Program-made: the position numbers and the translations under genes | Notes under the pieces: generated by a model | Told to the model about the DNA's origin: nothing | The model's input: the letters and a program-made list of their open reading frames with translations, nothing else | Database searches by the model: none | From: Jezberella montanilacus | GTDB lineage: Bacteria > Pseudomonadota > Gammaproteobacteria > Burkholderiales > Burkholderiaceae_B | Reading direction: 5' to 3' | DNA: 64,000 nt | NCBI RefSeq assembly: GCF_003003055.1 | Contig: NZ_PVTV01000018.1 | Span: 1 to 64,000, forward strand | Part shown: in pieces, positions 10,852-17,672 of the stretch | How positions within the stretch are numbered: the first letter of the stretch is position 1 | Layout of the letters: every line of letters begins with the position of its first letter

Positions 10852-11759
10852 GGCTTCTCTTGGGTCGTTGAGGCTGGGATGGATGCCACCAGTTTATCGA
10901 TGTCGATCTGGCCGGAATAAACAGTGGTGGCAGGTCCGGTCATGCGTAATTGAGCGCCGTCAAATTCAATGGTTAACCAACCACCGTGGGTGCGAACCTT
11001 GACAGGACTGTCGAGTATGCCCCTGCGCACGCCAGCAGCGACTGCTGCGCAAGCACCGGTGCCGCACGCAAGCGTTTCGCCTGCTCCGCGCTCGTAGACT
11101 CGCAGGTAAATCGTCTGTCTGTCGATGACTTGCATGAAGCCAGCATTGACTCGCTTGGCAAATCTCGGGTGTGACTCAATCAGTGGGCCGATTTGACGGA
11201 CCGGCGTTGTGTCGACGTCAACGACGACTTGGACCGCGTGGGGATTCGAAATCTGCACGAGCGATAGCCAGACAGCTTTTGTCACAGAACCATCCTGCGT
11301 CGTGAGAGGCAGCTCGTAGAGCGTGTCGATACCGTCTGTTTTGCTTGTTAATCCCGCTACATCAAATCCCAGGCTAGTGGGATCAAAACGAGTTTGGCCC
11401 ATGTCGACAGTGACATCGCCGCTGGGTAATTCGTTCAGGGTGATGAGGCCGGTCGCGATTTCAGCTTTCAGGGGATTGCGGGACGAAAGCTTTTGCTCGT
11501 GAACAAAACGGACAAAACAACGTGATCCGTTGCCGCAATGCTCTACTTCGCTGCCGTCGCTATTGAAAATCCGGTATCTGAAGTCGGCCTCGGGGTGCGA
11601 CGGGTTCTCGACGAGCAGAATTTGGTCGCAGCCGATGCCGAACTGCCGGTGAGCCAGCGCACGCGCGCGTTGAGGGGTCATTTCAATGGGGGATCGCACC
11701 CCGTCGAGCACGACAAAGTCGTTGCCCGCGCCATGCATTTTGGTGAAGTTCCAGATCAT
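10848..11759 (-). CDS. dapF: Diaminopimelate epimerase
   Basis: Converts LL- to meso-diaminopimelate for peptidoglycan and lysine synthesis. At 303 residues it contains both catalytic cysteines: Cys75 in CGNGSRC and Cys232 in ACGTGAC, plus the N-terminal MHGAGNDFVV motif. It heads the operon and is divergent from metK across 232 nt. In some relatives a lipid A acyltransferase gene lies between metK and dapF; none is present here. Confidence 0.96.
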   Translation of the reverse strand: MIWNFTKMHGAGNDFVVLDGVRSPIEMTPQRARALAHRQFGIGCDQILLVENPSHPEADFRYRIFNSDGSEVEHCGNGSRCFVRFVHEQKLSSRNPLKAEIATGLITLNELPSGDVTVDMGQTRFDPTSLGFDVAGLTSKTDGIDTLYELPLTTQDGSVTKAVWLSLVQISNPHAVQVVVDVDTTPVRQIGPLIESHPRFAKRVNAGFMQVIDRQTIYLRVYERGAGETLACGTGACAAVAAGVRRGILDSPVKVRTHGGWLTIEFDGAQLRMTGPATTVYSGQIDIDKLVASIPASTTQEKP

Positions 11760-11920
11760 GCTCGTATTATCGCCAATTTTGGCTTAAAATACCGTCAGGC
11801 GCTGAGTTAAACGACAACTTGCGGCGCGCCTGTTGTTAGATTGTGGATGACATGCCCGATCAACAACGAAAAAATCCGCTAAAGCGTCTCGCCCGGATCC
11901 ATACGTCTACATATCTGTTT

Positions 11921-11991
11921 GATGGCATAGGTAAGGGGTGCAGCGCACCTTCTAACCCATAACTGACCTAGTCAGTAGCAAGGATGCCATC
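11921..11991 (+). promoter_or_regulatory. Structured metK leader: candidate riboswitch (three-way junction)
   Basis: Seen directly: GATGGCAT (11921-11928) is the exact complement of ATGCCATC (11984-11991), extendable by T11920 with the A of the metK ATG. Inside are two hairpins: GGTGC/GCACC (11937-11941 with 11945-11949) and ACTGAC/GTCAGT (11962-11967 with 11971-11976), each with a 3-nt loop. The only good ribosome-binding sequence, AAGGA (11980-11984), lies between the second hairpin and the closing stem. Closing the stem would hide the start region. metK leaders in other bacteria often carry SAM riboswitches; the layout recalls SAM-III/SAM-VI in principle, but I recognise no known consensus here. 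Confidence 0.65.
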
Positions 11992-13158
11992 ATGCTAAAA
12001 GCAAGCGATTACCTCTTTACCTCCGAATCTGTTTCAGAAGGCCATCCCGACAAAGTCGCAGACCAAATATCTGATGCGATTCTTGACGCGATTTTCACCC
12101 AAGATCCCAACGCCCGTGTTGCTGCTGAAACGCTGTGTAACACTGGATTAGTGGTTCTGGCCGGTGAGATTACAACCTTCGCTAACGTCGACTATATCCA
12201 GGTCGCCCGCGACACCATTAAGCGTATTGGTTACGACAATACCGAATACGGTATTGATTACAAAGGTTGCGCGGTGTTGGTGGCCTACGATAAGCAGTCC
12301 CCGGATATTGCTCAAGGCGTTGATCGCAGTTCAGAGGATTATTTAAATCAAGGTGCTGGCGACCAGGGTTTGATGTTTGGTTATGCGTGTAACGAAACAC
12401 CAGATCTCATGCCCGCACCGATCTGGTACGCACACCGTTTGGTGCAACGCCAAAGCGAATTGCGCAAAGACGGTCGCCTGCCTTGGTTACGTCCTGATGC
12501 CAAATCGCAAGTCACCTTCCGATATGTCAATGGCAAGCCTGTTGAAGTCGACACCATCGTTTTGTCGACGCAACATGCGCCTGAAGCCTCGCAAGAGATG
12601 ATCCGTGAAGCGGTCATTGCTGACATCATCCGTCCTTGCTTCCCTGATGGTTTATTGACGCCGCAGACCAAGTTTCTGGTGAACCCAACAGGTCGTTTTG
12701 TTATCGGCGGCCCGCAAGGTGATTGCGGTCTGACAGGTCGCAAGATCATTGTTGATACCTACGGTGGTGCTTGCCGCCACGGTGGTGGAGCGTTCTCGGG
12801 CAAAGATCCGTCTAAGGTCGACCGCTCGGCCGCTTACGCTGCACGTTACGTTGCCAAAAATATCGTAGCCGCCGGTTTGGCGGCACAGTGCGAAGTGCAA
12901 GTGAGCTACGCAATCGGTGTTGCTGATCCGATCAACATCACTGTCAATACCAACGGCACGGGTGTGGTCCCTGACGAGCAGTTGTCTTTATTGGTTCGCG
13001 AACACTTTGATCTGCGTCCTAAAGGCATCGTCAATATGCTGGACTTGTTGCGTCCCATCTACAGCAAGACAGCAGCCTATGGTCACTTCGGTCGCAGCGA
13101 GCCTGAATTCAGCTGGGAAGCCACCGACAAAGCGGCTGCCTTGAAAAAAGGCGTTTGA
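11992..13158 (+). CDS. metK: S-adenosylmethionine synthetase
   Basis: Makes SAM from methionine and ATP in the cytoplasm. The 388-residue protein starts with [13 protein letters not shown] (His18 region) and has [12 protein letters not shown] and the P-loop-like [12 protein letters not shown], the three usual signatures. The start at 11992 is fixed by conservation and by AAGGA 7 nt upstream. The preceding leader is strongly structured and may regulate translation. The reaction links it to ahcY and metF about 4 kb downstream. Confidence 0.97.
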
Positions 13159-16049: not shown

Positions 16050-16134
16050 GCTTTTGAGGAGCGTTGCGACGGATCGTTGGTAATCAACCACCAGTGCTAG
16101 TTACCAATACTAGCCATCCGCCAGGCTCAAAAGC
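16050..16134 (+). promoter_or_regulatory. S-adenosylhomocysteine (SAH) riboswitch
   Basis: The stem P1 is perfect: GCTTTTGAG (16050-16058) with CTCAAAAGC (16126-16134). It encloses the conserved core GAGCGTTGCGACGG (16059-16072) and CCGCCAGG (16118-16125), with P2 CGGAT/ATCCG (16070-16074 with 16116-16120). These are the hallmark nucleotides of the SAH riboswitch, which in betaproteobacteria sits before ahcY and turns expression on when SAH accumulates. The downstream gene is ahcY. Confidence 0.93.
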
Positions 16135-16139
16135 TCAAA

Positions 16140-16169
16140 CGTTACCGTTGGCATTTTCCAACTTTAACG
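16140..16169 (+). promoter_or_regulatory. Hairpin between SAH riboswitch and ahcY
   Basis: CGTTA (16140-16144) pairs with TAACG (16165-16169) and GTTGG (16147-16151) with CCAAC (16158-16162), separated by a small internal loop. It lies 88-117 nt before the ahcY start and may be part of the expression platform. No U tract follows, so it is not a standard terminator. Confidence 0.45.
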
Positions 16170-16256
16170 GCGCTCACCCAATCCTGTAGACAGCGATTGC
16201 GGTGGCTTATTGTCAGCCCAAGCAGTTGCTTCGCAGGCCTACCGGAGCTTACCGCT

Positions 16257-17672
16257 ATGAATGCTGTGACTGACAAATTTACCGATTACTACGTTGCCGA
16301 CATGTCCCTCGCACAATGGGGCCGTCAAGAAATCGCCATTGCTGAAACTGAAATGCCTGGTTTGATGGCTACTCGCGAAGAGTTTGCTAAGACCAAGCCT
16401 CTGAAAGGTGCCCGTATCACAGGCAGCTTGCACATGACCATTCAGACTGCGGTGCTGATTGAAACCTTGCAAGCACTCGGCGCCGAAGTGCGTTGGGCGT
16501 CATGCAATATCTACTCAACTCAGGATCATGCTGCTGCTGCGATTGCTGCGATGGGCACTTCAGTGTTCGCCAAGAAAGGCGAAACCCTGACAGAGTATTG
16601 GGATTACACCCACAAAATTTTTGAGTGGCCCAATGGCCATCACGCCAACATGATTCTGGATGACGGTGGCGATGCAACATTGTTGCTGCATCTCGGCACC
16701 AAAGCCGAGTCTGACATCAGCGTGCTCGATAAGCCAGGTTCAGAAGAAGAAATCGTTCTGTTCAGCGCGATCAAAGCAACGTTGAAGCGTGATCCCAAGT
16801 GGTACTCGGTTCGCCTGGCAGCCATCAAAGGCGTGACCGAAGAAACCACGACTGGCGTGCTTCGTCTGTACCAGATGTCGAAAAAAGGCGAGCTGGCTTT
16901 TGCTGCGATCAACGTCAATGATTCAGTGACTAAATCAAAGTTTGACAATCTGTACGGCTGCCGTGAATCCCTGGTTGACGCAATCAAGCGTGCAACAGAC
17001 GTCATGATTGCCGGCAAGATCGCTGTTGTGGCTGGTTACGGCGATGTGGGTAAGGGCTCTGCACAAGCCTTGGCCGCCTTGCGTGCCCAAGTTTGGGTGA
17101 CAGAAATTGATCCGATTTGTGCGCTTCAAGCGGCAATGGAAGGCTTCAAAGTTGTCACCATGGAAGAAGCAGCTGACAAAGCTGACATCTTCGTAACGGC
17201 AACGGGCAACTACAACGTCATTACCCGCGCCCATATGGATCGCATGAAGGATCAGGCCATTGTTTGTAATATTGGCCACTTCGATAACGAGATTGACGTT
17301 GTCGGCATCGAAGATCTGAAATGGGAAGAAATCAAGCCCCAAGTCGATCATGTGATCTTCCCTGACGGCAAGCGCATCATTTTGCTGGCCAAAGGTCGTC
17401 TGGTTAATCTGGGTTGCGGCACGGGTCATCCCTCATTTGTGATGTCTTCTTCGTTTACGAACCAGACAATCGCACAGATCGAGCTCTTCACACGCAACGA
17501 CGCTTATCAGTCAGGTCAGGTTTATGTTTTGCCTAAGCACCTCGACGAGAAAGTTGCCCGTTTGCATCTGAAGAAGATTGGCGCTCAATTGACTGAGCTC
17601 ACACCAGCTCAGGCAGCCTACATCAGCGTGAGCCAGCAAGGCCCATTCAAAGGCGACGCCTACCGCTATTGA
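16257..17672 (+). CDS. ahcY: S-adenosylhomocysteine hydrolase
   Basis: Splits SAH into adenosine and homocysteine, relieving product inhibition of methyltransferases. From the ATG at 16257 (GGAG 9 nt upstream) it has 471 residues, the bacterial family length; an earlier in-frame start would fall in the leader. Visible are the NAD-binding [10 protein letters not shown], the substrate region [13 protein letters not shown], and the C-terminal KGDAYRY. It is under the SAH riboswitch and is followed by a small membrane gene and metF. Confidence 0.97.

Follow-up and report, generated by a model that had tools for sequence, protein, structure and literature searches.

A SAM-II-like pseudoknot in the metK leader of Jezberella montanilacus and its relatives, proposed as a translational switch

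The leader of metK in Jezberella montanilacus contains a conserved, covarying H-type pseudoknot that looks like a diverged relative of the SAM-II riboswitch (SAM_alpha, RF00521), and it is probable that this leader turns off metK translation as a divergent switch of the SAM-II type. The gene lies in the 64,000-nucleotide stretch of contig NZ_PVTV01000018.1 that was analysed (hereafter, the window), and the features of its leader are collected in Table 1. SAM binding, repression as its outcome, and the route of switching are inferred, as follows. The metK mRNA would begin with the pseudoknot aptamer (11796–11894), followed by a translational platform (11895–11992). When SAM is plentiful, it would bind the triplex pocket of P2 and keep P1 and P2 closed, leaving the sequence after the aptamer available for pairing with the start codon and the Shine–Dalgarno sequence (SD) of metK, so that SAM synthetase would be turned off; the net effect would be product feedback on this enzyme. 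Without SAM, the UUGC–linker–P1 3′ strand could form pairs with the tail that directly follows GCUAAAG; this would open the aptamer and, in some relatives, use up part of the anti-SD.

Such a switch would provide a regulator for betaproteobacterial metK, which was left without a known one by Leyn et al. (2014; PMC4239095). In that study, betaproteobacterial metK is under no known methionine regulator, and attempts to find one were unsuccessful. In the literature searched, where subscription papers were mostly outside the search, no report of a riboswitch on metK in this order was found.

Table 1. Features of the metK leader, with positions in the window
Feature	Positions	Strand	Basis or remark
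−10-like box TAAAAT	11785–11790	+	Sequence; transcription start expected at first aptamer bases
Aptamer P1 5′ strand, CAGGCGC	11796–11802	+	Pairs with 11826–11832 by sequence
Aptamer loop L1 (GAGUUAA) and P2 5′ strands (GAC, 11813–11815; UUGCGG, 11819–11824)	11803–11825	+	
Aptamer P1 3′ strand, GCGCCTG	11826–11832	+	Pairing and covariation
Variable insert hairpin in loop L3	11833–11867	+	
P2 3′ strand (CCGC, 11876–11879; bulged T11880; AA, 11881–11882)	11876–11888	+	
P2 extension GTC, within P2 3′ strand	11886–11888	+	Pairs with GAC, 11813–11815
Linker with genus-wide ACGTC (11903–11907)	11895–11920	+	By eye
Anti-SD strand of SD-hiding helix (closing helix of the junction), TGATGGCAT	11920–11928	+	Sequence, fold, shuffles
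Platform hairpin 1, GGUGCARCGC core	11930–11957	+	Fold; relatives' leaders
Platform hairpin 2, ACTGAC/GTCAGT	11962–11976	+	By eye
SD AAGGA and 3′ strand of SD-hiding helix, ATGCCATCA, reaching A of ATG	11980–11992	+	Sequence, fold
metK (SAM synthetase), 388 aa	11992–13158	+	ORF; named from its sequence

The pseudoknot lies in a block about 30–125 nt further upstream of the helix that had originally been predicted to close a metK-specific sensor (11920–11992), and this block is almost frozen among metK leaders: its sequence pattern matched 38 of 50 loci, in seven families, and it is present in 6 of the 17 metK leaders read from other families. Its order is P1, the loop GAGUUAA..GACAACUUGC, the P1 3′ strand, an optional hairpin, and then CCGCUAAAGCGUC, and in the window it is located just 3′ of the −10-like box. 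A search with metK found relatives of the gene in 59 of 61 related genomes. A −10-like hexamer is found within 22 nt upstream of aptamer P1, most often at a distance of 7–8 nt, in 39/39 same-family and 34/40 other-family leaders (52 of 632 control windows inside metK contain one); the TAAAAT box of the window was not picked by a two-hexamer promoter scan. With a −10-like box directly before aptamer P1, the RNA should start with the aptamer, near 11797. A leader peptide starting at the conserved GTGCAACGC was considered and rejected, as its frames end or shift between close relatives (judged by eye).

Two covariance models, whose E-values are rough owing to a short calibration, were used to follow the element: R1, trained on 20 metK leaders, and R2, trained on 32 sequences that all come from families other than that of the window. 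Searched against the whole genome of the organism, R2 gives one significant match, at 11797–11893 (58.4 bits, E = 8.2e-12; next E = 0.145). The proposed metK element, which is absent from Rfam 15, is matched by R1 in 136 of the 151 sampled genomes of the window's family; of the 15 negative genomes, eight are smaller than 1 Mb, five belong to one genus with genomes of 1.9–2.7 Mb, and two are larger. R1 matches 118/200 genomes of the order (genes other than metK included). Across the phylum it matches 35/299, of which 23 belong to the window's order and the remaining 12 to a single further family within the class. Among the matches listed, the loop pattern occurs in Achromobacter, Bordetella, Alcaligenes, Castellaniella, Pusillimonas, Advenella, and Zwartia; the environmental relative Zwartia panacis carries the element. 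R1 also finds metX, metZ, and metH leaders, and neither R1 nor R2 lists the metX element of the organism's own genome. By labels assigned from short motifs, the 230 parsed loci (duplicates included) comprise 177 metK, 15 metZ/Y, 13 MATE transporter, 3 metX, 3 metH, and 19 unclassified loci. Another family, probably Pseudomonadaceae, contributes 12 genomes (L256–L267; sRNA P11 was found in 2 of the 10 loci scanned). There the element lies upstream of a small ORF with a methyltransferase-like look, and these 10 loci contain no Rfam riboswitch.

Loci were parsed by a program that demanded the loop motif, [AG][AC]TTGC, GCTAAAG, and at least four P1 pairs, and therefore the conservation of these letters in the counts below is partly a result of selection. 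Of 249 loci, 19 were not parsed, comprising 11 metK leaders without the element by eye, L027, which is cut by its contig, and 7 in which an R1 match was missed; among the missed loci, L085 has the loop GGUUUAA (that is, U10) with GCTAAAG, and L084 has the same loop. L004 was misparsed at an internal GCTAAAG and is still one of the 40 same-family rows in the SD coevolution test and one of the 160 leaders in the leader counts; it was corrected for the 73-leader alignment, left out of the equilibrium-folding, aptamer:tail, and shuffle tests, and cut short of the start codon in the comparison of platform hairpins. The 73-leader alignment was drawn from 80 non-redundant leaders by removing the seven whose linker is 1 nt long; L111 was dropped from the U10 and linker counts, and L148 and L158 were left out of one other analysis. 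Some leaders have two locus numbers, so that raw tallies contain duplicates, and the sole correction for phylogeny in the permutation tests is the removal of leaders at least 80% alike.

The pairing of the pseudoknot is sustained across the 73 non-redundant metK leaders, in which 94.4% of 1240 pair cells form standard pairs and two-sided changes occur in 11 of 17 pairs (133 cells, compared with 41.9 in shuffles; 0 of 500 shuffles as high); when the partners are slid out of register, pairing falls to 37–48%. In aptamer P1, all seven pairs show two-sided changes and 90.6% of the cells are paired, the outermost pair being unpaired in 33/73 leaders. Six P2 pairs are paired in 100% of these leaders, and the two outer ones, which the parser never demanded, vary between G-C and A-U; the P2 extension GAC/GUC also occurs as GAGC/GUUC and GAAC/GUUC. 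When the window's family is left out, 92.1% of cells are paired and 11/17 pairs are two-sided in 32 other-family sequences, in which the number of further pair types is not above that of shuffles (389/500 as high). If the demand for P1 is dropped, at least four aptamer P1 pairs are found at 163 of 173 distinct anchored metK sites; at the other 10 the anchor is visibly misplaced upstream, and the stem is present where the true loop starts. P1 is present in the metK locus L118, another of those that the parser missed, where no GCTAAAG occurs within 135 nt. Loop L3 of 48/79 non-redundant leaders holds an insert of at least 14 nt; the insert folds have a mean z of −1.89 when 0.3 kcal/mol is added to the standard deviation of the shuffles. 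L015 has no insert.

The likeness to SAM-II extends from the H-type arrangement of P1 and P2, which the metK element shares, to the GA-N-UU loop, the UUGC and GCUAAA strands of the pocket, and an association with methionine and SAM genes. The pocket of SAM-II consists of U10, U11, and U12; U20, U21, G22, and C23; and G42, C43, U44, A45, A46, and A47 (PMC3764141). In the register given by the RF00521 alignment, whose consensus GAUUU, CUUGC, and GCUAAAG are in line with the metK element, 12 of these 13 nucleotides are kept in 73/73 metK leaders, with UUGC and GCUAAAG required for parsing; the invariance of U11, U12, and UUGC is likewise partly selection, through UUGC and the loop motif. The A-rich part of L3 before the P2 3′ strand reads CAAAT or TAAAT in many short copies, and AAAAAATCC plus the insert in the window. 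Unlike SAM-II, the metK element often has a hairpin insert in L3, has metK as its target, and has its SD about 90 nt after the aptamer. It also differs at position 10, where 118 of the 124 distinct metK copies that were parsed have G, compared with 5 of 47 other copies (counts without phylogeny correction), and in its linker, which is 2 nt long in 108/124 metK copies as well as 11/11 MATE copies, with P2 extended by two covarying pairs. U10 is present in at least two unparsed metK copies, L084 and L085. In the copies before metX, metZ, and metH, the loop reads GAUUUG and the linker is a single base; all but one also have CAGCUUGC.

The related copies before metX, metZ, and metH are nearer to SAM-II. 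Four of these leaders score above the curated cut-off of RF00521, 36 bits, at the same place as R1 (44.0, 37.9, 37.2, and 36.1 bits), and the metX leader of the organism's own genome (L051, 1500–1570) reaches 28.1 bits (E = 3e-4), below it. The window gives no RF00521 match at E = 10, and 2 of 35 metK loci match at 21.8 and 20.9 bits, both below 36 (one leader counted twice). Because of this score and the change at U10, the metK element does not qualify as a filed member of SAM-II. Neither the window leader nor 18 element-bearing leaders of relatives is matched by the Rfam families for SAM-I, SAM-III, SAM-IV, SAM-V, SAM-VI, SAM/SAH, SAH, or SAM-II long loops, and the single Rfam match in 11700–12200 is at chance level (E = 6.8).

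Related elements have been described. SAM-II in betaproteobacteria has already been mentioned (PMC2258182; PMC2704228), and Leyn et al. (2014) described a betaproteobacterial RNA element with six conserved regions and a predicted pseudoknot between regions 1–4 and 2–6, described at metX and metZ only and with terminators. In the same taxonomic order, R1 finds metX and metZ elements whose topology agrees with the published description; the target of the present element is metK. SAM-V (RF01826) has the same fold as SAM-II and is translational (PMC6061858), with its SD in P2a at the end of the aptamer, whereas the SD of the metK element is far downstream. The name of SAM-II long loops (RF01726; PMC2864571) suggests that inserts are tolerated, as in L3 of metK leaders; neither RF01826 nor RF01726 matches any leader scanned with Rfam. 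The SAM/SAH riboswitch (RF01727) is likewise a pseudoknot upstream of metK (PMC7367207), is described as found only in Rhodobacterales (PMC2864571), and does not match the window leader.

The same differences from SAM-II bear on the nature of the ligand. The pseudoknot might be a riboswitch in which U10G and the longer P2 have changed the ligand to SAH, methionine, or a SAM analogue; the near-restriction of G10 to metK copies and the linker and P2 shared by metK and MATE copies are in favour of this, and there is a precedent in SAM-I variants (PMC10853860). We regard such a change as unlikely, given that all 73 leaders retain the remaining 12 pocket nucleotides (partly by selection) and that L084 and L085 are metK copies with U10. 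In addition, metK is a classic target of SAM feedback. SAM, proposed from the start as the obvious ligand, is still rated the most likely one. More tentatively, the metK aptamer could be a distinct subclass in which U10G and the extended P2 retune ligand specificity or affinity, the GGUGCARCGC hairpin could be a further part of the platform, and these genomes could read SAM twice at different thresholds, through SAM-II-like elements on metX/metZ and through the metK element. U10G would in any case offer a natural SAM-II pocket variant for testing how pseudoknot aptamers tune binding.

The link from the pseudoknot to translation comes from the segment that follows it. For each leader, pairing of the 35 nt that follow GCUAAAGCG with its own SD/start region was compared in energy with pairing to swapped partners, giving −11.05 versus −9.33 in the window's family (z = −5.2, n = 40; 0/2000 permutations) and −12.90 versus −10.00 in other families (z = −7.7, n = 40; 0/2000 permutations), and three control segments were null (z = −1.1 to +1.4). 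Since own SD pairings beat swapped ones and the controls are null, the segment after the pseudoknot coevolves with the SD. The linker ACGTC is complementary to the SD of relatives, AGGACG, and the window has AGGATG (by eye); the genus pairing thus looks like ACGUC with AGGACG, and the SD of the window looks to have drifted and to use 11920–11928 instead.

Translational control is favoured by this coevolution together with the absence of a terminator-like site from the window leader (scan of 11700–12010), in agreement with the original prediction of a structured leader that probably controls translation. Control by transcription termination instead of SD hiding is the mode of most SAM-II switches (PMC6061858), and 3/39 and 3/40 leaders contain at least six consecutive T between the aptamer and the SD; for this leader it is improbable, since both the coevolution of SD and anti-SD and the lack of a terminator-like site in the window leader speak against it.

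The coupling itself is less plain at equilibrium. When the aptamer is imposed on the fold, SD accessibility does not change consistently: it is lower in 14 and higher in 10 of 42 same-family leaders, and lower in 11 and higher in 10 of 33 others (Wilcoxon p = 0.68 and 0.99). Such a lack of coupling would fit a protein-binding or constitutive mRNA structure that does not switch with a ligand; this is quite improbable, as metX, metZ, and metH have this core as well, in some cases matching RF00521, and the pocket residues are kept. For a SAM-responsive translational switch, folding during transcription may matter for the coupling between pseudoknot and SD. The alternative aptamer:tail pairing is stronger than with shuffled tails (0/100), is weak in the window (−9.1 kcal/mol), and gives no own-versus-swapped signal in 39, 40, or 79 leaders; it was rejected as a coevolving switch, as it beats shuffles without such a signal.

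The original prediction had placed the sensor in a compact 71-nt three-way junction between 11920 and 11992, and all the features it described are found at the positions given. GATGGCAT (11921–11928) is complementary to ATGCCATC (11984–11991), with one further pair between T11920 and A11992 (the A of the metK ATG, 11992–11994); the hairpins GGTGC-AGC-GCACC (11937–11949) and ACTGAC-CTA-GTCAGT (11962–11976) have 5 and 6 bp; the strands of the proposed alternative pair, GGGT (11936–11939) and ACCC (11955–11958), are both present; and the SD AAGGA is at 11980–11984. The minimum-energy fold of 11900–12010 includes the junction (−32.8 kcal/mol, z = −2.25; 3/200 shuffles equally stable), and a 9-nt perfect complement of 11977–11994 inside 11895–11975 is reached in 6/1000 dinucleotide shuffles. 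From these two shuffle results, the junction is modestly beyond chance.

Both strands of its closing helix are present in 1 of 160 distinct metK leaders, the window's own, and for this reason the helix fails as an aptamer stem on the ground of conservation in related leaders that the prediction itself had named. The idea that the junction is a new aptamer, despite its compact, stable fold and a hairpin 1 core common to the genus and many family leaders, is the least probable of all, as strong conservation and covariation belong to the pseudoknot further upstream and the closing strands are the window's alone; the sensor had probably been sought in the wrong place. What stands of the closing helix is its function, as SD pairing is conserved, and what does not is its sequence, for which other genomes use different coevolving strands: the helix is the version of the SD-hiding helix found in the window's lineage. 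The region 11920–11992 is only the 3′ half of the full leader element, and the junction is probably the part of the platform that adjoins the aptamer and hides the ribosome-binding site. The leader offers a case in which an SD-hiding helix is replaced quickly while the sensor next to it changes slowly. Platform hairpin 2 occurs in relatives as CTGGC/GCCAG, CCGGC/GCCGG, and TTGGC/GCCAA (by eye). The GGUGCARCGC core of hairpin 1 (11930–11957) is more conserved than a simple spacer would need.

Several observations were made beside the metK leader. RF02424 (Burkholderia sRNA Bp2_Cand287) matches the strand opposite the RF00521 matches, below its cut-off of 70, at L189, L179, L184, L110, L159, L161, L144, L093, and L120; read backwards, the RF02424 consensus resembles the aptamer, so that this family may represent a SAM-II-type riboswitch recorded on the wrong strand. 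Tandem aptamers, in which an RF00521 match is followed by a metK-type element, occur at L110 (38.4 bits; 131–208 and 301–379), L120 (29.1), L144 (28.9), L146 (33.5), and L093 (34.2), of which only L110 is above the RF00521 cut-off, and four of the five precede MATE-like transporter genes. At L126 (1295–1418, minus strand) and L130 (1294–1417, minus strand), a SAM-I/IV match (44.9 and 44.5 bits) lies directly before a metK-type element, so that two unrelated types of SAM riboswitch stand in tandem, and an ATPase-like gene follows downstream. The SAH riboswitch that had been noted near metK is confirmed by Rfam at 16050–16182 of the window (54.5 bits) and precedes an ORF (16197–17672) that is ahcY by its sequence.
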